Shown one piece after another: positions 22,210 to 33,821 of a DNA stretch of 64,000 nucleotides. Numbering within the stretch: the first letter of the stretch is position 1; every line of letters begins with the position of its first letter. The position numbers and the translations under genes are program-made. The notes beneath the pieces are model-generated. The model searched no databases and was not told where the DNA came from. It worked only from the letters and a program-made list of their open reading frames with translations. Origin of the DNA: Pleomorphomonas diazotrophica (GTDB lineage: Bacteria > Pseudomonadota > Alphaproteobacteria > Rhizobiales > Pleomorphomonadaceae); NCBI RefSeq assembly GCF_002844595.1, contig NZ_PJNW01000009.1, forward strand, positions 279,604 to 343,603. Reading direction: 5' to 3'.

Positions 22210-22887
22210 ATGCAGCCGCACGACTTCTGGCAGACCATCCATCCGGCCGGCGGCCATGCCGACGAAGGTCCCTTCGCGGACGCCTATCCAGCCCGTCTCG
22301 CCGACGGCCGGCAGCTTCTCCTGCCCATCCGGGCGCACCCCGACGGCAAGCATGGGCTGGCCTCGCTGATCGTCAATCAGGCGAGCTTCGCCGTGCTCTC
22401 CGCGCTGGCCGACGATCTCGTCGCCCGCCTGCGGCCTTATTCGCCCGACGTGGTGGTTGGCCTGCCGACGCTGGGCCTGACGTTGGCCGCCGCCGTCGCC
22501 GAGCGGCTCGGCCACTCCCGCTATGTCCCCTGCGGCACCTCGCGCAAGTTCTGGTACCTGGACGAGCTGTCGGTGCCGATGAGCTCGGTCACCACCCACC
22601 ACGTCAAGCGCCTCTACATCGACCCGCGCATGCTGCCGCTCCTGCAAGGGCGGCGGGTGGCTCTCGTCGACGACGTCATCTCCTCCGGCGCTTCCATCGT
22701 CGCCGGCCTCGGCCTGATGGCGGCCGTTGCCGTCGAACCGGTGGCGATCGGCGCTGCCATGCTCCAGACCGGCCGCTGGCGGCCAGCGCTCGCGGATCTG
22801 TCGCCGATCTGGCCCGACCGCGTCGTCGGCTCGCTCACGACGCCTCTGCTCGAACGGACCGAAGGCGGCTGGAAGCGCGCGGGATAG
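22210..22887 (+). CDS. Phosphoribosyltransferase-family protein
   Basis: 225 residues with a type I PRTase fold. The PRPP-binding motif is VALVDDVISSGASIVAGLGL (about residues 152-171), with the two acidic residues and following Ser/Gly that hold the pyrophosphate. Upstream is VVVGLPTLGLTLAAAVAERLG, typical of purine-type PRTases. The base or role is not clear; relatives in Rhizobiales are often annotated as adenine PRTase-like. ATG at 22210 is used; the long upstream frame overlaps the binding-protein gene on the other strand. Confidence 0.85.
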   Translation: MQPHDFWQTIHPAGGHADEGPFADAYPARLADGRQLLLPIRAHPDGKHGLASLIVNQASFAVLSALADDLVARLRPYSPDVVVGLPTLGLTLAAAVAERLGHSRYVPCGTSRKFWYLDELSVPMSSVTTHHVKRLYIDPRMLPLLQGRRVALVDDVISSGASIVAGLGLMAAVAVEPVAIGAAMLQTGRWRPALADLSPIWPDRVVGSLTTPLLERTEGGWKRAG

Positions 22888-22917
22888 TGTCCATTCAGAA
22901 AAAAGATTGGGGTCTAC

Positions 22918-22946
22918 GGAATAAAACGTATCGGGCGGTGTTGTTG
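22918..22946 (+). promoter_or_regulatory. Candidate ECF-sigma promoter
   Basis: GGAATAAA (22918-22925), a typical ECF -35-like element, is followed ~16 bp later by GGTGTT, 45-50 bp before the COG4315 start codon. The ECF sigma gene two genes along could control its own cluster through it. The -10 match is weak. Confidence 0.35.
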
Positions 22947-22990
22947 CCTTCGGGAGCTGGAAAACCCCGCGTCTCCCAAGGAGGGATATC

Positions 22991-23383
22991 ATGAACCGTT
23001 TGATCGTTTCCGCATTGCTCGCCGGCCTTGCCGCCGCCGCCACTCCGGCTTTTGCCGAGGACTATGCCTCCGGAGCCATCAAGACGATGGATAGCTCCAA
23101 GGGCGAGATCCTGACCGATGCCAAGGGTATGGCGCTTTATACCTTCGACAAGGATGCCCAGGGCGTCTCCAACTGCTATGGCGATTGCGCGGTGAAATGG
23201 CCGCCGGTGACGGCCGCGGCCGGCGCCATGGCCGACGGCGACTTCTCGCTGGTGACCCGCAAGGACGGCGCGCAACAGTGGGCCTTCAAGGGCATGCCGC
23301 TCTATCTCTGGCAGGGCGACAAGAAGGCGGGCGACATCACCGGCGACGGAATGGGCGGCGTCTGGCACCTCGCTAAGGAGTGA
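22991..23383 (+). CDS. COG4315 secreted protein (Lipoprotein_15 repeat family)
   Basis: Exported protein of 130 residues. A signal peptide (NRLIVSALLAGLAAAATPAFA) precedes two family repeats: KGMALYTFDKDAQGVSNCYG with CAVKWPPV, then FKGMPLYLWQGDKKAGD. The Cys pair CYGDC is conserved. Function unknown in the family; it commonly adjoins ECF sigma-factor genes. Ribosome-binding site AAGGAGG precedes the ATG. The stop codon is the first triplet of a structured repeat that separates it from the sigma gene. Confidence 0.88.
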   Translation: MNRLIVSALLAGLAAAATPAFAEDYASGAIKTMDSSKGEILTDAKGMALYTFDKDAQGVSNCYGDCAVKWPPVTAAAGAMADGDFSLVTRKDGAQQWAFKGMPLYLWQGDKKAGDITGDGMGGVWHLAKE

Positions 23384-23500
23384 TACCAAGCCGCGTTGAA
23401 AATGCGGCTTGGTATTCCGCTTGCGGATTTCTCATCGCCTGATGCAAATGAGAAATCCGTAATCCTCAATGAGCGGATGCGTCAGCATCTTCGCGAGTTG
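23381..23500 (+). repeat. Structured stop-to-start intercistronic repeat, copy A
   Basis: Begins with TGATACCAAG, whose TGA is the stop codon of the COG4315 gene, and ends 15 bp before the ECF sigma start. Three hairpins: TACCAAGCCGC / GCGGCTTGGTA (23384-23414), CGGATTTCTCAT / ATGAGAAATCCG (23424-23459) and GATGC / GCATC (23476-23489). A 119-bp copy with changed but still pairing stems lies at 32067-32185. Confidence 0.85.
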
Positions 23501-23515
23501 CTACAAGATCGGATC

Positions 23516-24022
23516 ATGCCGGGCTTCCTGGACGACATCGAAACGCTGGTGCCGGCCTTGCGACGCTACGCAAGGGCGCTCACCCGCAACATCGACCGGG
23601 CCGACGATCTGGTCCAGGACTGTCTCGAACGCGCGATTGCCAAGCAGAGCCTGTGGCGGCCGACCGGCCCGCTCCGCCCCTGGCTTTTCAAGATCATGAT
23701 CAATCTCTACCGCAACGACCGCCGCCGCCAGCGCAATTCCCTTGAACAGGAAACGCTGGACATCATGCCCTTCGAGCCGGCCACACCGGCACCGCAGGGC
23801 GCGCGGCTGGCCCTGGCTGAAACGGCCGCCGCGCTTCAGCGGCTTCCGGGCGAACAGCGCGAGGCGCTGCTGCTGGTCGCCCTCGAAGGCATGAGCTATG
23901 CCGAGGCGGCTGCCGCCCTCGACATACCCCAGGGCACGCTGATGTCGCGGATATCAAGGGCGCGCGAAGCCCTGCGCGGCATGGTGGACGGAACAGGACC
24001 GAAACTGAGGTCGGTGAAATGA
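23516..24022 (+). CDS. ECF-type RNA polymerase sigma factor
   Basis: 168 residues. Region 2 is visible as LRRYARALTRNIDRADDLVQ with DCLERAIAK and RPWLFKIMINLYRND; region 4 as LQRLPGEQREALLLVALEGM with SYAEAAAALDIPQGTLMSRI. No region 3, as expected for ECF sigmas. ATG at 23516 (MPGFLDDIETLVPAL) is chosen, because the frame upstream to 23396 runs through the structured repeat. Its stop overlaps the next start by ATGA, so it is coupled to its probable anti-sigma factor. Confidence 0.88.
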   Translation: MPGFLDDIETLVPALRRYARALTRNIDRADDLVQDCLERAIAKQSLWRPTGPLRPWLFKIMINLYRNDRRRQRNSLEQETLDIMPFEPATPAPQGARLALAETAAALQRLPGEQREALLLVALEGMSYAEAAAALDIPQGTLMSRISRAREALRGMVDGTGPKLRSVK

Positions 24023-24798
24023 ACCAGAGGACCACCATCACCGAGGCCGATCTCAACGCCTATGTCGACGGCGAGCTGACGCCGGAGCGGCGGGCGGTGG
24101 TCGAGGCGCATCTTGCCGACCACCCGGTCGACCGCGAGCGCGTGGCCGCCTGGCGCGAGCAGACCGCGACGTTGCGGTCGCTGTACGGCCATGTGGCCGA
24201 GGAAACGCCGCCGGCGCGCCTGACGCCCTGGCGCCTCGCGGCCGAACGGCGTCGTAATCTCAGTCGATTTGCCATGGCCACGGCGGCAGCCATGGTGCTC
24301 GTGGTGTCGGGCGCTGTTGGTGGCTGGGTCGGTCGCGGCCTCATCCTGCCCGCTCAGTCGGAAATGACCCTGGTGAGCGAAGCCGAGGCCGCCCATACGC
24401 TCTATGTGCCGGAGGTGCTACATCCGGTGGAGGTGACGGGGGAGGAGGGCTCGCATCTCACCAAATGGCTCTCGAAGCGCCTCGACCGCACCCTGATTAT
24501 CCCCGACCTCTCATCGGAAGGCTTCTCGCTGGTCGGCGGTCGGCTGCTGCCGGCGGCCCGCAGCGCCGCCGCGCTCCTGATGTATGAGAACCGCGATGGC
24601 GCCCGCGTCACGCTCTACGTCGTGCCGAAGGACGGCGGCGAAACGGCCATGCGCTTCAGCTCCGTCGGAGATCTGACGGCGGTATCCTGGCAGGCCGAGG
24701 CGCTCGGCTGCGTGCTGGTCGGCAGCCTGCCGCGCGAAACGCTGACGAAGCTCGCCAAGGCGAGCTACGGCACCCTCGACGCCGGGTCGGACATCTGA
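24019..24798 (+). CDS. Membrane-anchored anti-sigma factor
   Basis: 259 residues. The first ~75 residues show the anti-sigma/zinc-finger-like architecture ITEADLNAYVDGELTPERRA and VEAHLADHPVDRERVAAWREQ but lack the HxxxCxxC zinc ligands. One transmembrane helix near residues 90-115 (ATAAAMVLVVSGAVGGWVG) places the C-terminal ~145 residues in the periplasm. The C-terminal part (HPVEVTGEEGSHLTKWLSKR) is similar to RskA/ChrR-like sensing domains. Translationally coupled to the sigma factor it is expected to hold inactive until an envelope or oxidative signal arrives. Confidence 0.85.
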   Translation: MNQRTTITEADLNAYVDGELTPERRAVVEAHLADHPVDRERVAAWREQTATLRSLYGHVAEETPPARLTPWRLAAERRRNLSRFAMATAAAMVLVVSGAVGGWVGRGLILPAQSEMTLVSEAEAAHTLYVPEVLHPVEVTGEEGSHLTKWLSKRLDRTLIIPDLSSEGFSLVGGRLLPAARSAAALLMYENRDGARVTLYVVPKDGGETAMRFSSVGDLTAVSWQAEALGCVLVGSLPRETLTKLAKASYGTLDAGSDI

Positions 24799-24818
24799 GA
24801 TCGCCGTCGGCCGGAGCG

Positions 24819-24897
24819 CTAGTGGAGCGAATTTGACATTTGAGTCCCGCCCGACATAAGGCTCCAGATCAAATGTCAAATTCAAAAGCTCCACTAG
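24819..24897 (-). repeat. Long hairpin element, copy 1 of an inverted pair
   Basis: Left arm 24819-24843 and right arm 24869-24897 pair over 25 bp with a single 4-nt AAAA bulge in the right arm. The ends read CTAGTGGAGC / GCTCCACTAG. Loop is 25 nt. It begins 20 bp after the anti-sigma stop codon. Assigned minus because copy 2, read on plus, aligns with its reverse complement. Confidence 0.9.
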
Positions 24898-24910
24898 AAA
24901 CAAAAACTTG

Positions 24911-24987
24911 CTAGTGGTTCTTTTGATTCCGACATTTGCTCCGAGGTTGGTATCAGGCGGAGGCAAATGTCGGAATCGAACCACTAG
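24911..24987 (+). repeat. Long hairpin element, copy 2 of an inverted pair
   Basis: Left arm 24911-24939 and right arm 24963-24987 pair over 25 bp with a 4-nt TTTT bulge in the left arm. Ends CTAGTGGTTC / GAACCACTAG. The reverse complement of copy 1 aligns to it end to end, including the bulge position. Its last bases include the TAG stop codon of the small membrane protein on the minus strand. Confidence 0.9.
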
Positions 24988-25229
24988 ATCCTCGGCTCTT
25001 CCGTCCGCCGGCGGCTGCGCAACTCGCGCCAGGCCTCCATACGCGGCGCGATGCCGAGCGCCACGGGCACCGCGATGATGAAGGTCAGGCCGACCACCCA
25101 GGGCACGAAAACCTCGGCCTGCTCTTCAAGAGGCGTCGCCATCACGATGACCATGCCGATGCCGAACAGGACGCCCTGCACGATCAGGTAGATCAGCAAC
25201 GTGAGCATGATGCGGAGTCTCATCGCCAT
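24984..25229 (-). CDS. Small two-helix membrane protein
   Basis: 81 residues, with helices at about 8-31 (LTLLIYLIVQGVLFGIGMVI) and 41-62 (VFVPWVVGLTFIIAVPVALG) and a basic C-terminus (RSRRRTEEPR). No family recognised. A ribosome-binding site AAGGAGAG precedes the start. Its TAG stop is formed by the terminal CTAG of the adjacent hairpin element, so the element's insertion may have set the present C-terminus. Confidence 0.7.
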   Translation of the reverse strand: MAMRLRIMLTLLIYLIVQGVLFGIGMVIVMATPLEEQAEVFVPWVVGLTFIIAVPVALGIAPRMEAWRELRSRRRTEEPRI

Positions 25230-25320
25230 CTCTCCTTGAAGGTCACTTCTCCCTTCAACGCAGAGACGGCCCGCTCGGTTGCCAAGGAAGGCCAGAAGCG
25301 ATCCTCGCCCAACCGATAAG

Positions 25321-26343
25321 CTACAGGTTTTCCTTGATCAGCACTTCGATCCGGATCTTTTCCTGGGAGGCCAGGATTTCGCGCCGGTCCTTGCGGGCTC
25401 TGAGGATGCGGATGGCGCTTCGCACCAGATGACCCGGATCCTGGGTGATCAGGGCGTCGACATGATGGGAACGCAGGGCAGCCTCGGTGAAGGGCGTTCG
25501 CTCGTGCGCGATGATCACCGGTTTCTCCTTGGTGAAAGCCTTGGTGACGACTTCGAGCGGAACCCGCGCCTCGGAGCTCACGATGTAGACGCCGGCGATA
25601 TTGGGCTGGCTCAGAAGACTGTTGTGAATGATGCGCGCCGTGCGCTCGGCATCGCCATAGGTCTCCAGCGAGGGCAGCACCGCGAGGTTGGGATAGTCGG
25701 CGTTGATGATTTCATCAAAACCCAGCCGCCGCTCCAGGCTGTCGCGGGCCAGCATCGTCTCGGCGATCACCAGGATCGCGCCCTCCGAATGCTTGAGGAA
25801 GCGCCCCATCAGCCGGCCTGCCGTGGCTCCCGCCGCATGATTGTCGATGCCGACGAAGTCATGCCGGCCGCTGGCCATCTGGCCGGCGATGAAGCTGATG
25901 GCGTCGATGCCCTTTTCGACCAGCCGTGCCTTGGCGTCGCGCACCTGGGGCGATTCCGGCGCCATGATGGCCACGCCGTCCGCCTGTTCCAGTTCGAGCG
26001 AGCCAAGCGCGTTGGCGATTTGGTGCGGATCGCTTTCGTGAATGTGCATGACATCCGCATGGATCATTTCCGCCGCGAAGATCTGGTTGGCCTCGTGGAT
26101 GCGCTCGACCAGTCCGGCGCGAAACTGGTCGCCGGTTCGGGGCAGCAGAAACAGGAAACGATAGCTTTTTCCTCGGGCCAGATTGGCAGCGACGACGTTG
26201 CGGATGAATCCAAGTTTTTGAATGGCTTGGTTCACCTTGAGGACGGTGTCCTCCCGGACGCCGGGCCGATTGTTCAGGACGCGGTCCACCGTCGCAAGGC
26301 TGACTCCCGCCTCGATCGCCAAATCCTTGGTTGTCGGTCGCAT
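25321..26343 (-). CDS. LacI-family transcriptional regulator of the ketose/polyol transport operon
   Basis: 340 residues. The N-terminal helix-turn-helix is TTKDLAIEAGVSLATVDRVL followed by the hinge NRPGVREDTVLKVNQAIQKL; the rest is a periplasmic-binding-protein-like sugar sensor. Divergent from the ABC operon with 177 bp between starts, in which two matching palindromes fit LacI operators. It most likely represses the operon in the absence of the transported sugar or polyol and may also control itself. Confidence 0.9.
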   Translation of the reverse strand: MRPTTKDLAIEAGVSLATVDRVLNNRPGVREDTVLKVNQAIQKLGFIRNVVAANLARGKSYRFLFLLPRTGDQFRAGLVERIHEANQIFAAEMIHADVMHIHESDPHQIANALGSLELEQADGVAIMAPESPQVRDAKARLVEKGIDAISFIAGQMASGRHDFVGIDNHAAGATAGRLMGRFLKHSEGAILVIAETMLARDSLERRLGFDEIINADYPNLAVLPSLETYGDAERTARIIHNSLLSQPNIAGVYIVSSEARVPLEVVTKAFTKEKPVIIAHERTPFTEAALRSHHVDALITQDPGHLVRSAIRILRARKDRREILASQEKIRIEVLIKENL

Positions 26344-26406
26344 CCGGCCTCCCGCTCAGCGCACCCGTCTCTTTTCATTGAAATTCGGATCGAGCGCAAC
26401 AGGCTT

Positions 26407-26422
26407 TGAGGTACGTACCTAA
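26407..26422. promoter_or_regulatory. LacI-type operator 1
   Basis: TGAGGTACGTACCTAA, with AGGTACGTACCT a perfect 12-bp palindrome and the CG centre typical of LacI-family sites. Located in the divergent promoter region, 64 bp from the regulator start. Confidence 0.75.
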
Positions 26423-26436
26423 AAGTCTGATTGCCG

Positions 26437-26452
26437 TGAGGCACGTACCTCA
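26437..26452. promoter_or_regulatory. LacI-type operator 2
   Basis: TGAGGCACGTACCTCA, the same site with one mismatched pair. Its centre is 30 bp, about three helical turns, from operator 1, which suits cooperative binding of two dimers on one face of the DNA. Confidence 0.75.
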
Positions 26453-26520
26453 TGTACGGTCAAACCCGTAAGTGTTGTGGCGAGGAGGCTGCTGCGCTTG
26501 CTATGGGGAGGACCAATCAC

Positions 26521-27852
26521 ATGAACGCGAAACGATTGCTGACGCGGGCCTTCACGGCCGCGGTCGTCGCCCTTGGCTTCAGCGCCGGCGCCGCACGGGC
26601 GACGGATCTGACGCTGTGCTGGGCGGCCTGGGATCCTGCCAACGCCCTGGTGGAACTCAGCAAGGAATATGAGGCCCAGTCGGGCAACACCATGCATTTC
26701 GAGTTCGTGCCGTGGACCAGCTTTGCCGATCGCATGCTGAACGAGCTGAACTCGGGCGGCAAACTCTGCGACCTGATGATCGGCGACAGCCAGTGGATCG
26801 GCGGCGCTGCCGAGAACGGCCAGTACATCAAGCTCAACGACTTCTTCGACGCCAACGCCATCAAGATGGACGACTTCATCCCGGCGACGGTGGTGGGCTA
26901 TTCCGAATGGCCCAAGAACACGCCGAACTACTGGGCGCTTCCCGCCTTCGGCGACGTGGTCGGCTGGACCTATCGCAAGGACTGGTTCGCACGCCCCGAG
27001 TTGCAGGCCGAGTTCAAGGCGAAATACGGCCATGACCTCGCCGTGCCCGCCACCTTCGACGAGCTGAAGCAGATCGCCGAGTTCTTCCAGAACCGCGACA
27101 TCGACGGCAAGAAGGTCTATGGCGTGTCGATCTACACCGAGCGCGGCTCGGAAGGCATCACCATGGGGGTGATGGACGTCCTCTACAGTTACGGCTTCAA
27201 ATACGACAATCCCGACAAGCCCTACGACATGGAAGGCTTCGTCAACTCCGACAATGCCGTCAAGGGATTGGAGTTCTACAAGTCGCTCTATGACTGCTGC
27301 GTGCCGCCGGGATCGTCCAACGGCTACATGACCGAGGGCGTCGATGCCTTCAAGTCGGGCCAGGTGGCCCTGCAGATGAACTTCGCCTTCACCTGGCCGG
27401 GCTTCAACACCGATGCCAACGTGGGCGGCGACCGCACCGGCTATTTCGCCAACCCGGCCGGGCCGAACGGCGACAAGTTCGCGCAGTTGGGCGGGCAGGG
27501 CATTTCGGTCGTCTCGGCCTCGGACAAGCAGGAGGCGGCGCTCACCTACATCAAGTGGTTTGCCCAGCCGAGCGTCCAGGCCAAGTGGTGGAAACTCGGC
27601 GGCTACTCGGCCTTGCGCGCCGTGGTGGAAGACCCCGGCTTTGCCACCAGCCAGCCCTATGCCCAGACCTTCCTCGACAGCATGGCTATCGTGAAGGACT
27701 TCTGGGCGGAGCCGAGCTACGCCACGCTGATGCAATCGTCGCAGAAGTGGTTCCACGACTATGTGGTGGCCGGCCACGGCACGGCCAAGCAAGCCCTCGA
27801 CGGACTGGTGGCCGATTGGCACGCCACCTTCGAGGAAGAAGGCAAGTACTGA
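26521..27852 (+). CDS. Carbohydrate ABC transporter binding protein
   Basis: Periplasmic solute-binding protein (SBP_bac_1 class) of 443 residues. Signal peptide KRLLTRAFTAAVVALGFSAG, mature chain from about ATDLTLCWAAWDPANAL. Domain features include GEYE-like YEAQSGNTMHFEFVPW and the C-terminal hinge LTYIKWFAQPSVQAKWWKLG. ATG at 26521 is chosen over 26452 because it gives a clean signal peptide and has GGGGAGGA upstream. First gene of the operon. The cargo is probably a small polyol or ketose, inferred only from the kinase at the operon end. Confidence 0.88.
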   Translation: MNAKRLLTRAFTAAVVALGFSAGAARATDLTLCWAAWDPANALVELSKEYEAQSGNTMHFEFVPWTSFADRMLNELNSGGKLCDLMIGDSQWIGGAAENGQYIKLNDFFDANAIKMDDFIPATVVGYSEWPKNTPNYWALPAFGDVVGWTYRKDWFARPELQAEFKAKYGHDLAVPATFDELKQIAEFFQNRDIDGKKVYGVSIYTERGSEGITMGVMDVLYSYGFKYDNPDKPYDMEGFVNSDNAVKGLEFYKSLYDCCVPPGSSNGYMTEGVDAFKSGQVALQMNFAFTWPGFNTDANVGGDRTGYFANPAGPNGDKFAQLGGQGISVVSASDKQEAALTYIKWFAQPSVQAKWWKLGGYSALRAVVEDPGFATSQPYAQTFLDSMAIVKDFWAEPSYATLMQSSQKWFHDYVVAGHGTAKQALDGLVADWHATFEEEGKY

Positions 27853-27866
27853 CCAAGCTCATGCGG

Positions 27867-27891
27867 GCCGAAGGCCGTCCGCGCCTTCGGC
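27867..27891 (+). terminator. Attenuating hairpin between binding protein and permease genes
   Basis: Perfect 9-bp stem GCCGAAGGC / GCCTTCGGC with a 7-nt loop in the 63-bp gap after the binding-protein stop. No T-run, so it is more likely an mRNA-stabilising or partial attenuator structure. Confidence 0.55.
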
Positions 27892-27915
27892 TCGCCGCTC
27901 CAGGAACGCACCATC

Positions 27916-28863
27916 ATGTCCGATCATCTCATCCAACGCGTCGCGTCAGCCACGCCACCCCGGCTTGCGCGCCGGATCCGGGGTGTTTCCGACCGGACGA
28001 TCGCCTGGCTGTTCGTGACGCCGACCATCCTGCTGCTCTTGGCGGTGAACATCTTCCCGCTGATCTGGACGATCCGCCTGAGCATGACGAATTTCCGTAC
28101 CAACCGGCCGAACAACCCGGTCGAGTTCGTCGGCCTGGAGAACTACCGCAAGATCCTGAGCAATCCCGATACCTGGGCCTCGTTGCAGGCGACCGCCCAC
28201 TTCCTGATCTCCACCATCGTCCTGCAGGTCGTGCTCGGCTTCACGCTGGCCTATCTCATCAACAAGAAGTTCCGCGGCAACGATCTCTGGACCACGCTGA
28301 TCGTGCTGCCGATGATGCTGTCGCCGGCGGTCGTCGGCAACTTCTGGACCTTCCTCTATCAGCCACAGATCGGATTGTTCAACTATTTCATAGAGTTCCT
28401 GTCCGGGATCGATCCCGCCAGCTTCTCGATGATCGGCGACGTCTCGCTCGCTCCCTGGACGATCGTCCTCGTCGACACCTGGATGTGGACGCCCTTCGTG
28501 ATGCTGATCTGCCTCGCCGGTCTCCGGTCGATACCGCCCAGCATCTATGAGGCGGCCGAATGCGACCGCGCCAGCAAGTGGCGGCAGTTCTGGACCATCA
28601 CGCTGCCGATGGCGCTGCCCTTTTTGATGCTGGCGGTGCTGTTCCGCGGCATCGAGAACTTCAAGATGTTCGACCTCGTGGTGCAGCTCACCGGCGGCGG
28701 CCCAGGCGCCACCACGCAGCTCACCTCGATCGATCTCAAGCGCGAAGCCTTCGAGAAATGGCGCACCGGCTTTGCCTCGGCCTATGCGGTCATCCTGTTC
28801 GTCACCGTCTTCGGCCTGGCCTCGATCTACGTGAAGGCGCTCAACAAGGTGAAAGACAGATGA
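27916..28863 (+). CDS. Carbohydrate ABC transporter permease (MalF-like)
   Basis: 315 residues, about six transmembrane helices, binding-protein-dependent transport inner-membrane component. The cytoplasmic coupling loop EAAECDRASKWRQFWTITLP is intact. N-terminal ~45 residues are polar and cytoplasmic. Ends in an ATGA overlap with the next permease, giving translational coupling. Forms the channel heterodimer with the next protein. Confidence 0.9.
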   Translation: MSDHLIQRVASATPPRLARRIRGVSDRTIAWLFVTPTILLLLAVNIFPLIWTIRLSMTNFRTNRPNNPVEFVGLENYRKILSNPDTWASLQATAHFLISTIVLQVVLGFTLAYLINKKFRGNDLWTTLIVLPMMLSPAVVGNFWTFLYQPQIGLFNYFIEFLSGIDPASFSMIGDVSLAPWTIVLVDTWMWTPFVMLICLAGLRSIPPSIYEAAECDRASKWRQFWTITLPMALPFLMLAVLFRGIENFKMFDLVVQLTGGGPGATTQLTSIDLKREAFEKWRTGFASAYAVILFVTVFGLASIYVKALNKVKDR

Positions 28864-29798
28864 GCTATTCGATCACCGAGCCGTCAAGCCGCCAGAAATG
28901 GTTCGCCGGAATCCTGGTTGTCGGCTACGCGCTGCTGACCTTGCTGCCGCTCATCTGGATCATCGCCACCGGCTTCAAGACGCCGGCCGACGCCATCGCC
29001 TATCCGCCCAAGGTGATTTTCACCCCATCGCTCGAGGGCTACGTCAACCTCTTCACCTCGCGCAGCCGGGTGACGCCGGAGGATCTCGCCGCGCTCGGCC
29101 CGCCCACCACATGGTACGACGCGATCGTGCGGCAATACGACATGGTCATCAACGGCCCCTCGCGCTACGGCGAGCGGTTCATGAACTCGGTGATCATCGG
29201 CTTCGGCTCGACCTTCCTGTCGGTGTTCCTCGGCACGATCGCTGCCTATGCCTTCAGCCGCTTCAAGGTGCCGCTCAAGGACGACCTCCTGTTCTTCATC
29301 CTGTCGACCCGGATGATGCCACCGATCGCCGTCGCCATCCCGATCTTCCTGATGTACCGGCAGCTCGGCCTGAGCGACACGCACCTCGGCATGATCCTGC
29401 TCTACACCGCGGTGAACCTGTCGCTGTCGGTCTGGCTGCTGAAGGGCTTCATCGACGAGATACCGATCGAATACGAGGAAGCGGCGCTGATCGACGGCTA
29501 CACGCGCTTCCAGGCCTTCTACAAGGTGGTCCTGCCGCAGGCCGCCACCGGCATCGCCTCGACGGCCATCTTCTGCCTGATCTTCTCCTGGAACGAATAC
29601 GCCTTCGCCGTGCTGCTCACCTCCGGCGAGGCGCAGACGGCGCCACCCTTCATTCCCACCATCATCGGATCGGGCGGCAAGGACTGGCCCGCCGTGGCCG
29701 CCGGCGCGACGCTGTTCCTCATGCCGATCATGATCTTCACCATCCTGCTCCGCAAACACCTGCTGCGCGGCATCACCTTCGGAGCGGTCCGCAAATGA
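28860..29798 (+). CDS. Carbohydrate ABC transporter permease (MalG-like)
   Basis: 312 residues with six predicted helices and a long first periplasmic loop (PKVIFTPSLEGYVNLFTSRS onward), as in MalG. The coupling loop is EEAALIDGYTRFQAFYKVVLP. The start overlaps the upstream stop (ATGA) and its own stop overlaps the next ATG the same way, so three membrane proteins are made in sequence from one message. Confidence 0.9.
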   Translation: MSYSITEPSSRQKWFAGILVVGYALLTLLPLIWIIATGFKTPADAIAYPPKVIFTPSLEGYVNLFTSRSRVTPEDLAALGPPTTWYDAIVRQYDMVINGPSRYGERFMNSVIIGFGSTFLSVFLGTIAAYAFSRFKVPLKDDLLFFILSTRMMPPIAVAIPIFLMYRQLGLSDTHLGMILLYTAVNLSLSVWLLKGFIDEIPIEYEEAALIDGYTRFQAFYKVVLPQAATGIASTAIFCLIFSWNEYAFAVLLTSGEAQTAPPFIPTIIGSGGKDWPAVAAGATLFLMPIMIFTILLRKHLLRGITFGAVRK

Positions 29799-29983
29799 AC
29801 GCCTTCCTCCACGGCCTCTTGCGCCTGCGCCGAGGCCCCTGGGAAATGGTCGCCACGGTGTTGATCGCCCTGGGAGTGGTCATGCTGATGCAGCCCATCG
29901 CGTTGGTTCTCTTCACCTATTCCTTCGTCGTGACCTTGGTGGGAACGGTTCTGTTCATCATCGTCAGCCATTTCCCGGAGTGA
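29795..29983 (+). CDS. 62-aa membrane protein encoded within the ABC operon
   Basis: Short but clearly real: it starts in an ATGA overlap with the permease and ends 3 bp before the ATPase start. 62 residues with one or two hydrophobic helices (EMVATVLIALGVVMLMQP and LVLFTYSFVVTLVGTVLFII). No family recognised with confidence. Rhizobial glycerol ABC operons encode a comparable small membrane protein beside two permeases and two ATPases, so it may be an accessory of this transporter type; that is inference from gene order. Confidence 0.8.
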   Translation: MNAFLHGLLRLRRGPWEMVATVLIALGVVMLMQPIALVLFTYSFVVTLVGTVLFIIVSHFPE

Positions 29984-29986
29984 TCG

Positions 29987-31081
29987 ATGGCACAGATCGT
30001 CATCAAGAACCTGCGCAAGGAATTTGGCGCCTTCACTGCCGTGCAGTCGTCGAGCTTCACCATCGAAGACGGCGAGTTCTTCATGCTGCTGGGCCCGTCG
30101 GGCTGCGGCAAGACCACGACGCTCCGGATGATCGCCGGGCTGGAGCTGCCGACGGCCGGCGAGATCTACATCAACGGCACCGAAGTCAGCCAGAAGCCGG
30201 CCTCCAAGCGCGATATCGCCTTCGTCTTCCAGATGTTCGCCCTCTATCCGCACATGAACGTGCGCCGGAACATCTCCTATCCGCTCGTCAGCCAGGGCAT
30301 GCCGAGGGATCAGGTGCGCGCCAAGGTCGACGAGGTGGCCAGGATTCTGGGCATCACCGCCTTGCTCGACAAGCCGGTGGGCGGTCTCTCCGGCGGCGAC
30401 CGGCAGCGCGTGGCGCTCGGGCGCGCCGTGGTGCGCGATCCCGCCTGCTTTCTGATGGACGAGCCGCTCGGCGCCCTCGATGCCGAGTTTCGAGAGCATA
30501 TGGCGCAGGAGCTGCGCGCCCTTCACGACCGCATGCACGCCACCACGGTCTACGTGACGCACGACCAGCTCGAAGCGATGCAGATGGGCGACAAGATCGT
30601 GGTGATGAACCACGGTGTCATCGAGCAGTTCGGCCGCCCGCAGGAGATCTACGACTGGCCGGCGACCACCTTCGTCGCCACCTTCATCGGCTCCCCGGCC
30701 ATGAACCTGTTGCCCTTCGAGGGCATGGTCGGCAATGGCGCGACCTCGGTCACGCTGGCCGGGGCGGAGGTGCATATCCCCAAGATGATCAGCGGCGGCG
30801 ATGGTACGCTGACCCTCGGCGTCAGGCCCGAGCACGTGCACCTCGACGATGCCGCCACCTATCGCGGGCGCATCGTCACCGCCGAATACCTCGGCACCAC
30901 GCAGATCGTCACGCTCGATACGCCGCTCGGTCAGGTCAAGGCCCGCCTCAGCTCCAACAAGGTGGTGACACCAGGCGAAACCGTCGGTCTGAGGTTCGAC
31001 GCCCGCTCGATCTCGCTCTTCGGGTCCGATGGCCGCGCACTGACCTCAACGGCCAATCAGAGGGTGCTGCACCATGGCTGA
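29987..31081 (+). CDS. ABC transporter ATP-binding protein 1 (MalK/UgpC type)
   Basis: 364 residues. Walker A GPSGCGKTT at 36-44; signature LSGGDRQRVALGRA (Asp replaces the usual Gln); Walker B CFLMDEPLGALDAEF; H-loop YVTHDQLEAM. The last ~130 residues are an OB-fold/TOBE regulatory domain (GVRPEHVHLDD). The Q-loop neighbourhood reads VFQMFALYPHMNV. It overlaps the second ATPase gene by 8 bp. The pair probably makes a heterodimer, whereas most MalK-type systems use one ATPase. Confidence 0.9.
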   Translation: MAQIVIKNLRKEFGAFTAVQSSSFTIEDGEFFMLLGPSGCGKTTTLRMIAGLELPTAGEIYINGTEVSQKPASKRDIAFVFQMFALYPHMNVRRNISYPLVSQGMPRDQVRAKVDEVARILGITALLDKPVGGLSGGDRQRVALGRAVVRDPACFLMDEPLGALDAEFREHMAQELRALHDRMHATTVYVTHDQLEAMQMGDKIVVMNHGVIEQFGRPQEIYDWPATTFVATFIGSPAMNLLPFEGMVGNGATSVTLAGAEVHIPKMISGGDGTLTLGVRPEHVHLDDAATYRGRIVTAEYLGTTQIVTLDTPLGQVKARLSSNKVVTPGETVGLRFDARSISLFGSDGRALTSTANQRVLHHG

Positions 31082-32069
31082 AGTCCGCTTGCAGAACGTC
31101 TCGAAATCCTTCGGCCGGCAGACGGCCCTCGAGGACGTTTCCCTGAGGGTGCCCAATGGCTCCTTCGTGGTGCTGCTGGGGCCGACCGGCGCCGGGAAGA
31201 CCACGCTGCTGCGCATAGTCTCGGGGTTGGATACCCCCAACGAGGGCGATGTGTTCATTGCCGGCCGCTCCATGGCAGGGTTGCCGCCGGCCGAGCGCAA
31301 CGTGGCGATGGTGTTCCAGCAATATTCGCTCTACCCGCATCTGACGGTGCGCGAGAACATGGAATTTCCGCTGAAATCGCCCCTACTCAGGACGCCCAAG
31401 GCGGAGATCGCCCGCAAGGTGGGGGAGGTGGCCGAGATCCTTCAGATCTCCCACAAGCTCGACAACAAGGCGACGGCTCTCTCCGGCGGCGAAATGCAGC
31501 GTGTCTCGATCGGCCGTGCCCTCGTGCGCAGCCCCAACGTCTATCTGATGGACGAGCCGCTCTCCTCGCTGGACGCCAAGCTGCGTGCCGACCTGCGCGT
31601 CGAGCTCAAGAACATCCAGGCCAATCTGGGCGCCACCTTCCTCTACGTCACCCACGACCAGATCGAGGCGATGACCATGGCCACCCATGTCGGCGTCCTC
31701 GATCACGGCCGGCTGGTGCAGTTCGGCACGCCACGCGAGATCTACGAGCAGCCGGTCAGCATCTACGCCGCCGGGCGCCTGGGACAGCCGCATATCAACA
31801 TCCTGCCGGCCGACCTGTTCGGCCCGGCGCCCTCCGGCGCCGCCTACATCGGCATGCGTCCCGAGCAGATCCTTCAGGGCGAGGGGCAGGACAGCCTGGT
31901 CAAGCGCGTCGAGCATCTCGGCGACCAGACCCGCCTGCACCTTGCTTTCAGGAATCACGACCTGACGACGGTCATCGACGCGCACACGCCGCTGCGGGCA
32001 GGCGACATCGTCAAGATCCAGCCGTTGAAGCCATTCTATTTCGACGCCGCCGGCGCTCGCATCGTCTGA
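31074..32069 (+). CDS. ABC transporter ATP-binding protein 2 (MalK/UgpC type)
   Basis: 331 residues. Walker A GPTGAGKTT at 36-44; signature LSGGEMQRVSIGRA; Walker B VYLMDEPLSSLDAKL; H-loop YVTHDQIEAM; a shorter C-terminal TOBE part (YIGMRPEQILQGEGQ). Overlaps the first ATPase gene by 8 bp. Its TGA stop is the first triplet of structured repeat copy B. All nucleotide-binding motifs are intact, so both ATPases look catalytically competent. Confidence 0.9.
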   Translation: MAEVRLQNVSKSFGRQTALEDVSLRVPNGSFVVLLGPTGAGKTTLLRIVSGLDTPNEGDVFIAGRSMAGLPPAERNVAMVFQQYSLYPHLTVRENMEFPLKSPLLRTPKAEIARKVGEVAEILQISHKLDNKATALSGGEMQRVSIGRALVRSPNVYLMDEPLSSLDAKLRADLRVELKNIQANLGATFLYVTHDQIEAMTMATHVGVLDHGRLVQFGTPREIYEQPVSIYAAGRLGQPHINILPADLFGPAPSGAAYIGMRPEQILQGEGQDSLVKRVEHLGDQTRLHLAFRNHDLTTVIDAHTPLRAGDIVKIQPLKPFYFDAAGARIV

Positions 32070-32185
32070 TACCAAGATGCATTGAAAATGCCTCTTGGTA
32101 TTCCGTTTGCCGATTTCTCATGCCCCTGACGCAACTGAGAAATCGGCAGTTCAATGAGCGGATGCGCCAGCATCTTCGCGAATTG
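32067..32185 (+). repeat. Structured stop-to-start intercistronic repeat, copy B
   Basis: Begins at the TGA stop of ATPase 2 (TGATACCAAG) and ends 16 bp before the kinase ATG. Hairpins: TACCAAGA / TCTTGGTA with GCATT / AATGC stacked inside, CCGATTTCTCA / TGAGAAATCGG (32110-32146), and GATGC / GCATC. Same order and spacing as copy A at 23381-23500. Confidence 0.85.
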
Positions 32186-32201
32186 GCATGAGGGGGACAA
32201 C

Positions 32202-33821
32202 ATGACGCAGTTCATGAACAAGCGCGAGAACATCGTCACCGAGGCGATCGAGGGGGCGGTGCTGGCCTCGGGCGGGCGCCTCGTCAGGCTGGACGGCTTC
32301 CCGCATATCCGCGTGGTGATGCGGGCCGACTGGGACAAGAGCCGCGTCGCCATCGTCTCCGGCGGCGGTTCGGGCCACGAGCCCGCCCATGTCGGCTTCG
32401 TCGGGCCGGGCATGCTGACCGCCGCCGTCTGCGGCGACGTGTTCGCCTCTCCCTCCGTCGATGCCGTCCTTGCCGGAATCCTGGCGGCGACCGGGCCGGC
32501 GGGCTGCCTCCTGGTGGTCAAGAACTACACCGGCGACCGGCTCAACTTCGGCCTCGCTGCCGAACGGGCGCGCGCCTTCGGTCTCAAGGTCAGCATGGTC
32601 ATCGTCGATGACGACATCGCCTTGCCCAACTTGCCGCAATCGCGCGGCCTCGCCGGCACGCTGTTCGTGCACAAGGTGGCCGGCGATCTCGCCGAGAAGG
32701 GTTGCGACCTCGCCACCGTCACCGCCGCCGCCGAGCGGATCATTGCCGGCACAAGGTCGATCGGCATGTCGCTCGACACCTGCACCGTGCCCGGCTCGGC
32801 CAAGGAGAGCCGCATCGCGCCCGGCAAGGCGGAACTCGGCCTCGGCATCCACGGCGAGCCGGGCGTCGAGCAGATCGACTTTCTCGGCGCCGAACAGGCC
32901 ATGGCCGCAATGATCGACAAGCTCTCAGCCGAGGCCGACGACAGGGAATACGTGGCCCTGCTCAACAACCTCGGCGGCGCCTCCGTTCTCGAAATGTCGG
33001 TGCTGGCCTACGAGCTGCTGCGCTCGGAGCTCGGCAGGAAGATCAAGTTCATCGTCGGACCGGCCGCCATGATGACGTCGCTCGACATGCGCGGCGCCTC
33101 GGTGTCGATCTGCCCCCTGACGCCCGAAGACGAAGCATCGCTCACCAGTCCCGTCGCCATGTCGGCATGGCCCGGCTGCCATCGGATCGCCGCCTCCGCT
33201 CCCCTGGTGCTTCCCGATGGCCTGAGGCCGATCCTGCCGATCCCCTCGCAGCATCAGGCGACGCGCGATTTCCTCATGAAGTGCTGCAACATCCTGATAT
33301 CCCTGGAAGCCGAACTGAACGCGCTGGACGCCAAATCGGGCGATGGCGATACCGGCTCCACGCTCGCCGGTGCGGCCAGAGACTTGATCGGGGCGCTGGA
33401 TCACCTGCCGCTCGCCGATCACACGCAGCTCTATCGGGCGATCGGGCTCGAGTTCAGCCAGACCATGGGCGGCTCGTCGGGCGTGCTTCTCGCCATCTTC
33501 TTCGCGGCGGCCGGCGACGCGGCCTCCAGCGGCCTCACCATGCGCGACGCGCTGATGGCCGGGCTGATCCGCATGCAGGAAATCGGCGGGGCGAGACCGG
33601 GCGACCGCACCATGATCGACGCACTTCATCCGGCGCTCCTGGCCCTCAACGACGGCATCGCCGCCGCCGCGGCCGCAGCGCGCAAAGGCGCCGACCACAC
33701 CGCCACCCTGAGCGTCGCCAAGGCCGGCCGCGCCGCCTACGTGAACGCCGAAAAGCTCAGCGGCCACCCGGATCCCGGGGCAGAGGCCGTGGCGCGATTG
33801 TTCGAGGCGCTGAGCGGTTAG
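32202..33821 (+). CDS. Dihydroxyacetone kinase-like ketose kinase, fused DhaK-DhaL
   Basis: 539 residues, ATP-dependent type. DhaK part: GGGSGHEP at 54-61 and GIHGEPG at 215-221, whose His217 fits the residue that binds the ketone covalently (His218 in E. coli DhaK). DhaL part from about residue 360: SGDGDTGSTLAGAA holds the Asp ligands for the Mg-ATP. Last gene of the transport operon, so it probably phosphorylates the incoming ketose or an oxidised polyol (dihydroxyacetone, erythrulose or similar). Start ATG 32202 has GAGGGGG upstream; the frame runs back to 32154 through the repeat. Confidence 0.9.
   Translation: MTQFMNKRENIVTEAIEGAVLASGGRLVRLDGFPHIRVVMRADWDKSRVAIVSGGGSGHEPAHVGFVGPGMLTAAVCGDVFASPSVDAVLAGILAATGPAGCLLVVKNYTGDRLNFGLAAERARAFGLKVSMVIVDDDIALPNLPQSRGLAGTLFVHKVAGDLAEKGCDLATVTAAAERIIAGTRSIGMSLDTCTVPGSAKESRIAPGKAELGLGIHGEPGVEQIDFLGAEQAMAAMIDKLSAEADDREYVALLNNLGGASVLEMSVLAYELLRSELGRKIKFIVGPAAMMTSLDMRGASVSICPLTPEDEASLTSPVAMSAWPGCHRIAASAPLVLPDGLRPILPIPSQHQATRDFLMKCCNILISLEAELNALDAKSGDGDTGSTLAGAARDLIGALDHLPLADHTQLYRAIGLEFSQTMGGSSGVLLAIFFAAAGDAASSGLTMRDALMAGLIRMQEIGGARPGDRTMIDALHPALLALNDGIAAAAAAARKGADHTATLSVAKAGRAAYVNAEKLSGHPDPGAEAVARLFEALSG

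Follow-up and report, generated by a model that had tools for sequence, protein, structure and literature searches.

The window analyzed here, a 64,000-nt stretch of the Pleomorphomonas diazotrophica genome (contig NZ_PJNW01000009.1, positions 279,604 to 343,603), contains two copies of an about 120-bp element with three hairpins, both in sense direction between co-directional genes. This element is probably a miniature inverted-repeat transposable element (MITE) that inserted at the stop triplet of the upstream gene, duplicated this triplet and was moved in trans by an IS630-family transposase targeting TNA (N, any nucleotide). Exact insertion with a 3-bp duplication at both loci, dispersed copies and covariation of three stems characterize the element itself, and other genomes carry IS630-type insertion sequences (ISs) with similar ends and 3-bp TNA duplications; we infer that a transposase of this type moves the element. 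What is new is the combination of a candidate mover of the IS630 type with a TNA duplication, placement on stop codons and covariation in three hairpins.

Insertion at TNA triplets and distribution of the family

Orthologous loci in the genus are either empty or filled. The locus in front of the dihydroxyacetone kinase gene is empty in three genomes (GTC-TGA-GGGGGG in G009 and G010, GTC-TGA-GGAGG in G011), whereas the genome holding the window (G000; G001–G013, G043, G120 and similar handles label other genomes) and G012 read GTC-TGA-TACC...GGCA-TGA-GGGGG. Likewise, the locus in front of the sigma factor gene carries a single TAA followed by the next gene in G004, G001, G012, G002, G010 and G011, is filled as TAA-TACC...TA-TAA in G013, G005 and G008, and is filled with altered triplets in G000 (TGA/CAA), G003 (TAA/TAG) and G009 (TGA/TAA). 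Each insertion therefore added about 120 bp of element and a second copy of the 3-bp target. In an initial annotation of the window, the element had been taken to start with the TGA of the upstream gene; this TGA is indeed the upstream stop codon, but it forms the left half of the target duplication and lies outside the element, whose right end extends 3 bp further than had been assigned. Recent movement is suggested by G120, where two copies that occupy separate sites and differ in their flanks match each other at all 120 bp. The mobility proposed in the initial annotation is supported by the exact empty sites at both loci, the target-site duplications and the identical copies in G120.

Profile searches yielded 245 matches, corresponding to 171 non-overlapping matches and 150 distinct copies of about 119–125 bp, none with a transposase gene; 116 of these are complete, with flanks long enough in 113 for the stop-codon and TRA/TYA counts below (R, purine; Y, pyrimidine) and in 112 for the agreement of triplet positions. 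With the ends set in the genus by a profile blind to the flanks, identical TNA triplets were found on both sides of 70 of the 116 complete copies (TGA, 31; TCA, 20; TAA, 14; TTA, 5), and the duplicated positions agree in 91, 91 and 90 of 112 copies. Terminal inverted repeats (TIRs) are short (6 bp) in the genus, where they read TACCAA...TTGGTA, correspond to TACCGACGG/TACCAACGG in G120, and are weak in Agrobacterium copies (TACGAA versus TACCAA). At the kinase locus of G006 (L080), a different hairpin element sits at the same stop codon (TAG) with CTAG on both sides; this spacer has therefore been struck by two unrelated elements.

The initial annotation knew of two operons with the element. 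With copy 1 as query, 14 matches at E≤1e-3 were found in the window's own genome, and the family is dispersed: DNA searches showed it in 13 of 14 Pleomorphomonas genomes (none in G007) and in one of 16 other relatives. For further copies, the order was searched with model R1 at E≤1e-5, which gave matches in 32 of 397 genomes, representing 14 of the 141 genera sampled; as no more than 8 or 9 candidates were scored in each genome by R1, copy numbers are lower bounds. All 29 stretches of named records with the hairpin 3 pattern belong to Pleomorphomonas or to proteobacterial metagenome-assembled genomes, relatives with 74–82% identity lie on 10 plasmid records (Agrobacterium, Allorhizobium, Asticcacaulis), and a search of phage records with the element gave no match. 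Such a patchy distribution is as expected of a mobile element.

Membership in one of two known groups of intergenic repeats, the rhizobial RIMEs or the CIRs of Caulobacter and Brucella, would account for several of these properties and is rather unlikely. RIMEs are about 108 bp in size with two palindromes, and RIME1 is said to have been described at the chvI locus. A copy that we had placed between chvI and chvG turned out to be wrongly assigned; it follows a response-regulator gene and its neighbors are an OmpR/EnvZ-like pair. RIMEs, compared here by description, share with our element that they are intergenic rhizobial repeats in dozens of copies (excerpts of PMC2573895 and PMC2245857) and are annotated as such in Sinorhizobium meliloti (PMC2573895), but model R2 (E≤0.01, strict filters) had no match in three large Sinorhizobium/Rhizobium replicons, S. 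meliloti pSymB, NGR234 pNGR234b and R. johnstonii pRL12, on which RIMEs are not established. CIRs, likewise compared by description, are similar in size (about 110 bp), in their structured hairpin arms, in intergenic position and in having TA at the ends (excerpt of PMC2229807). In contrast, the CIR mark, a conserved GANTC in a terminal loop, is not conserved in our element: any GANTC occurs in 33 of the 92 copies of one alignment, in 11 of the 41 of the other and in neither window copy, and membership in CIR fails on this motif. Moreover, R1 at E≤1e-5 with strict filters, scoring about 9 candidates in each genome, found no match in a class-wide sample of 384 further genomes (a few of them from this order), which speaks against both groups. 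The excerpted 2007 review gives the CIR target duplication as “?”, that is, as unknown, and calls for more on the mechanism of mobility (PMC2229807), whereas our element duplicates TNA; for a comparable alphaproteobacterial repeat, empty sites are now known, the 3-bp target is defined and a candidate transposase can be put to the test.

Placement on stop codons and orientation relative to genes

The initial annotation had emphasized that the element spans the distance from stop to start. The duplicated triplet coincides with the stop codon of a gene in 68 of the 113 complete copies (37 are intergenic elsewhere and 8 were called inside genes), and outside the genus 20 of 41 copies lie on a stop codon. 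TGA and TAA are themselves TNA triplets, and the element therefore seems to begin with the upstream stop; we explain the span by the TNA target and not by a role for the second gene. A similar test placed 69 of 113 insertions on stop codons, compared to 132 of the 6730 TNA triplets that these flanks contain, and most of this contrast is avoidance of genes. For the 98 of 113 copies with genes called on both sides and at least one TNA in the gap, 65 lie on the stop versus 50.9 expected under uniform choice among the TNA triplets of the same gap (P about 1e-5); where a gap offers both stop and non-stop TNA, the numbers are 31 of 53 versus 15.9 expected. We read the bias as the product of a TNA target and the loss of harmful insertions, plus some further preference that is unexplained. 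A first codon model favored antisense frames, and its counts (27 forward, 13 reverse and 72 none of 112; null 199/5896) were discarded.

Insertion at TGA or TAA would leave the upstream protein unchanged and would keep the downstream ribosome-binding site; at the kinase locus, the G-rich stretch 5′ of the kinase start remains 3′ of the element. IS630-type elements are able to enter genes, as illustrated by a Shinella copy with TGA on both sides that separates the two annotated portions of a LacI-type regulator. Placement on stop codons would show how a transposon colonizes operons with little harm. In the window operons, about 120 nt of stable hairpins would part the stop from the next start and may weaken translational coupling.

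That the element is instead a true cis-regulatory RNA, retained in particular operons because it serves the second gene as leader or attenuator, with mobility as an incidental property, is unlikely. Convergent gaps, in which no downstream cistron exists, are over-represented: they hold 44 of the 99 copies that have a called gene on either side, whereas among 155 other gaps in these flanks 21 are convergent. Both window sites are empty in sister species. Simple consensus scans at both window copies showed no promoter-like or terminator-like site, and there was no Rfam match over the copies, the six sub-threshold matches in window positions 22500–33000 overlapping neither copy up to E 5. On the other hand, the strong covariation of the three stems (see below) would fit a regulatory RNA, and so would the orientation of the copies: counted once per orthologous site (89 copies), co-directional gaps hold 28 sense versus 11 antisense copies (p 0.009), while convergent gaps show no bias (19 versus 16). 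A preference for TRA could add to the sense bias; read from the left end, the intergenic non-stop copies with intact duplication comprise 15 TRA and 4 TYA.

A conserved copy between genes reading as glgC and glgA is the third point that such a regulatory role could claim. This old copy is the most widely shared one, present in 8 genomes (loci L149, L203, L130, L214, L221, L025, L216, L131), and, judged from the translations, follows the glgC-like gene and lies 20 nt before the GTG of the glgA-like gene. Hairpin 1 has been lost, whereas mean identity is 76% in the hairpin 2 block and 92% in the hairpin 3 block, compared to 58% in the preceding spacer. Pairing persists in 109 of 120 and in 92 of 96 stem cells, and hairpin 2 has undergone one two-sided change. 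Conservation is 94% in the 20 nt up to the GTG, 93% in the first 60 nt of glgA and 80% in the next 120 nt. The leader and the glgA start are as conserved as hairpin 3, and therefore the whole leader, not the hairpin alone, may be constrained. This suggests, without proving it, that the copy has been taken over as glgA leader, and provides a concrete case where a mobile hairpin may have joined the leader of a gene.

Together, the sense bias in co-directional gaps and the glgC-glgA copy are hints of an effect at the RNA level. We tentatively consider, as a possibility that is less likely than not, that the copies form a mobile three-hairpin RNA family whose IS630-type mover shifted from TA to TNA, which made stop codons natural landing sites, and that hosts have kept some copies as parts of mRNAs, in sense orientation within operons and as the glgC-glgA leader. 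If so, each jump would regenerate the stop codon, leave both proteins intact and drop a ready-made structured RNA between two cistrons.

Three hairpins with covarying stems

The two window stretches align over their whole length and fold into three hairpins each, in agreement with the initial annotation that they represent the same element (z-scores −7.8 and −7.7; 0 of 200 shuffles as good). The compensatory change noted there in stem 2 is present in the sequence (CGGATTTCTC/GAGAAATCCG versus CCGATTTCTC/GAGAAATCGG). For a broader view, 92 copies were aligned, comprising 90 of 104 listed copies (113 less 9) or their window counterparts, with both window copies included. Two-sided changes were found in 22 of 39 pairs, and 94.5% of cells are paired. 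In a cross-family alignment of 41 chosen copies, which includes 30 from other genera, 30 of 41 pairs show two-sided changes and 90.0% of cells are paired. The covariation score of this alignment is 0.379 versus 0.151 (standard deviation 0.008) for shuffles, a control that ignores relatedness, and at most 0.100 for slid versions. The prediction of a structured element is thus supported by covariation in all three stems, and copies placed at random relative to genes and devoid of stem covariation, the opposite outcome envisaged in the initial annotation, are not what we observed.

The three-hairpin structure was supplied by hand from single-sequence folds. RNAalifold on the 92 copies recovered hairpins 2 and 3, and hairpin 1 not as a whole; the latter is the least well paired (88.1%), with a stretch of frequent mismatches at columns 8–10 of stem 1. 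Stem mismatches were also tried as a strand test, but the counts (G-T 93 versus A-C 53, with 21 G-T cells in one column; 59 versus 44 without that column and columns 8–10) were not used. Overall, the three-hairpin structure looks constrained, either as RNA or as DNA. The hairpins may be kept by selection, being needed for spread or serving as a spacer or stabilizer of the mRNA between cistrons.

Alternatively, matched stems could be maintained by mutation, in that template switching at palindromes copies one arm and mimics compensatory change. Long, near-perfect stems like those of our element are the setting in which such correction is known, and the mismatch stretch in stem 1 is as patchy correction would give. 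This explanation is nevertheless improbable, because whole stems differ between genera while loop sequences remain similar, and because the two-sided changes in the 41 copies are spread over all three hairpins, including the bulged hairpin 3.

The peptide start MSGC-[VA]-SIFA, shared by both copies and noted in the initial annotation, begins at an ATG that is indeed present in hairpin 3, but the peptide is a by-product of the conserved hairpin 3 DNA. At the kinase locus it shares the frame of the start codon (distance 48 nt), but at the sigma factor locus it does not (47 nt). In the former case (window positions 32154–32201) this ATG would add 16 residues to the dihydroxyacetone kinase, which is probably fortuitous. 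In G009, a further palindromic repeat is nested in hairpin 3 of two copies (L051, L202), at the same position after TCAATGAGC.

An IS630-type insertion sequence as candidate mover

The genome G120 carries many copies of the element and was searched with a pattern for both ends, TNATACCRRCGG, which occurs 33+35 times compared to 1+5 times for the reversed control. The resulting listing contains 18 inverted pairs 113–127 bp apart, of which 16 are flanked by identical triplets. Two further pairs are about 1.16 kb apart and represent two ISs with 98% identity. The measured copy is 1162 bp long, has the TIR TACCAACGGCC (also given as TACCAACGG) and contains a helix-turn-helix open reading frame (ORF) and a DDE_3 ORF, assigning it to the IS630 family (NF033545, PF13358). 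The right end of the G120 element is identical to the IS end over the 12 terminal bp. The two IS copies (L369 2120–10190) are direct repeats whose starts lie about 7 kb apart and show TTA on the outer sides only, as a composite transposon would; the translation of the ORF after the first copy reads like a tyrosine integrase.

Among 14 related IS copies examined, ends were found for 10, and 7 of these are flanked by identical TNA triplets: G043 (TGA), two copies in G004 (TCA and TAA), Shinella (TGA), Novacetimonas (TAA), Methylobacterium (TTA) and Sinorhizobium sojae (TTA). Within the genus, only 4 of 14 genomes, G001, G003, G004 and G010, contain relatives of the G120 DDE ORF at E≤1e-10. The relative in G010 (L371) keeps an element-like right end, ...GAGTTGGTA-TTA. 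For Pleomorphomonas, the link between element and IS is drawn by analogy with G120.

Several observations weigh against the proposed MITE and its IS630-type mover. The left end of the G120 element and the IS share only 4 contiguous bp, no internal 11-mer is common to both in this genome, and the search pattern fixed the first nine bases, so that these ends were found because they were sought. The finder of IS ends ranked candidates with matching triplets higher, although a search that took no account of matching also brought up three of the seven matching cases (G043 and both from G004). Unequal triplets flank both G120 IS copies (TTA/TGA and TAA/TTA; only the outer pair matches) and the Mesorhizobium copy (TAA/TTA). 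In Pleomorphomonas, element and IS have only TACCAA and the TNA target in common. The IS copies of G004 have other ends (TACCGGTT), and the G010 relative is decayed, with a stop codon in its ORF and no recognisable left end. Neither an intact partner IS nor a relative of the DDE ORF at E≤1e-10 was found in G000, and the copies there may therefore be stranded. Members of the IS630 family are described, in an excerpt of PMC2170065, as inserting into TA with a 2-bp duplication; the element and 7 of 10 IS copies instead carry a 3-bp TNA. The ISs therefore look like a TNA-using subgroup, and the element may function in the manner of an IS630 MITE, though as a variant. As for the element, 46 of the 116 complete copies lack an identical TNA pair, and outside the genus such pairs flank 25 of 41 copies, whose ends were however snapped to TNA. 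Finally, our own codon-usage model with seed genes took the place of a standard gene finder, and part of the stop-codon share (50.9 of 98 expected) is accounted for by gaps so short that they offer few TNA sites.

An IS5-type (IS1031/PIF-Harbinger-like) transposase as mover is very unlikely, for although these groups make 3-bp TNA duplications like that of the element, the 59 loci of 74 genus matches to PF13340 and PF01609 (some cut by contig ends) included none with TACCAA...TTGGTA-type ends, matches to PF13359 in 12 genomes reached the cut-off only in G012, at loci already covered, with one weaker G043 match outside, and the fitting ends turned up on an element of the IS630 family.

The IS of about 1.16 kb with its helix-turn-helix and DDE_3 ORFs and the TIR TACCAACGG resembles IS630 members, and a TNA subgroup would widen the IS630/Tc1-mariner family, which is described as TA-specific. 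Among the matches listed in the open-licence literature, no title or abstract start dealt with a TNA-targeting IS630 element or with this repeat. The closest parallel in mechanism is RUP of Streptococcus pneumoniae, which is about 107 bp long and has ends like those of an IS630-family IS that has been proposed as its mover in trans (excerpts of PMC2229807 and PMC3049150). Like RUP with IS630-Spn1, our element is short, contains no gene and has ends like those of an IS630-family IS. Unlike RUP, whose targets contain TA according to the same excerpt (PMC2229807), it has TNA as its duplicated target, is placed on a stop codon in most cases (68 of 113), folds into three separate hairpins with covarying stems and was found here in alphaproteobacteria.

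The coordinates of both window copies and of their neighboring genes are listed in Table 1. The scores refer to R2, a covariance model built from the 41 copies, which include both window copies.

Table 1. Positions of the two element copies, their hairpins, target duplications and flanking genes in the window.
Feature	Position	Strand	Basis
TGA stop of upstream gene, left target-site duplication copy (copy 1)	23381..23383	+	orthologous empty sites: single TAA stop
Element copy 1 (probable MITE), TACCAAG...TTGCTA, 120 bp	23384..23503	+	R2 111.4 bits, E 6e-24
Copy 1, hairpin 1	23384..23414	+	fold, covariation
Copy 1, hairpin 2 (CGGATTTCTCAT / ATGAGAAATCCG)	23421..23462	+	fold, covariation
Copy 1, hairpin 3, contains ATG of MSGC...	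23467..23500	+	fold, alignment
CAA, decayed right target-site duplication of copy 1	23504..23506	+	intact TAA in G013, G005, G008
Upstream gene of copy 1, COG4315/SCO0930-like protein	22991..23383	+	ORF; NF040526 under its cut-off
Downstream gene of copy 1, extracytoplasmic function (ECF) sigma factor	23516..24022	+	TIGR02937 above its cut-off
TGA stop of ABC ATPase gene, left target-site duplication copy (copy 2)	32067..32069	+	empty sites G009, G010, G011
Element copy 2 (probable MITE), TACCAAG...TTGGCA, 119 bp	32070..32188	+	R2 118.5 bits, E 1.4e-25
Copy 2, hairpin 1	32070..32100	+	fold, covariation
Copy 2, hairpin 2 (CCGATTTCTCA / TGAGAAATCGG)	32107..32149	+	fold, covariation
Copy 2, hairpin 3	32152..32185	+	fold, alignment
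TGA, intact right target-site duplication of copy 2, directly 5′ of GGGGG ribosome-binding region	32189..32191	+	
Upstream gene of copy 2, ABC transporter ATP-binding protein (UgpC/MalK-like)	31074..32069	+	two best models under their cut-offs
Downstream gene of copy 2, dihydroxyacetone (glycerone) kinase family	32202..33821	+	TIGR02361 483 bits, under cut-off 575

Besides the two copies, R2 gave two weak matches in the window (18.3 and 13.6 bits), one of them antisense to copy 2. At positions 24819–24895, a match to a microRNA family far under its threshold (32.3 of 74 bits) probably reflects another inverted repeat.

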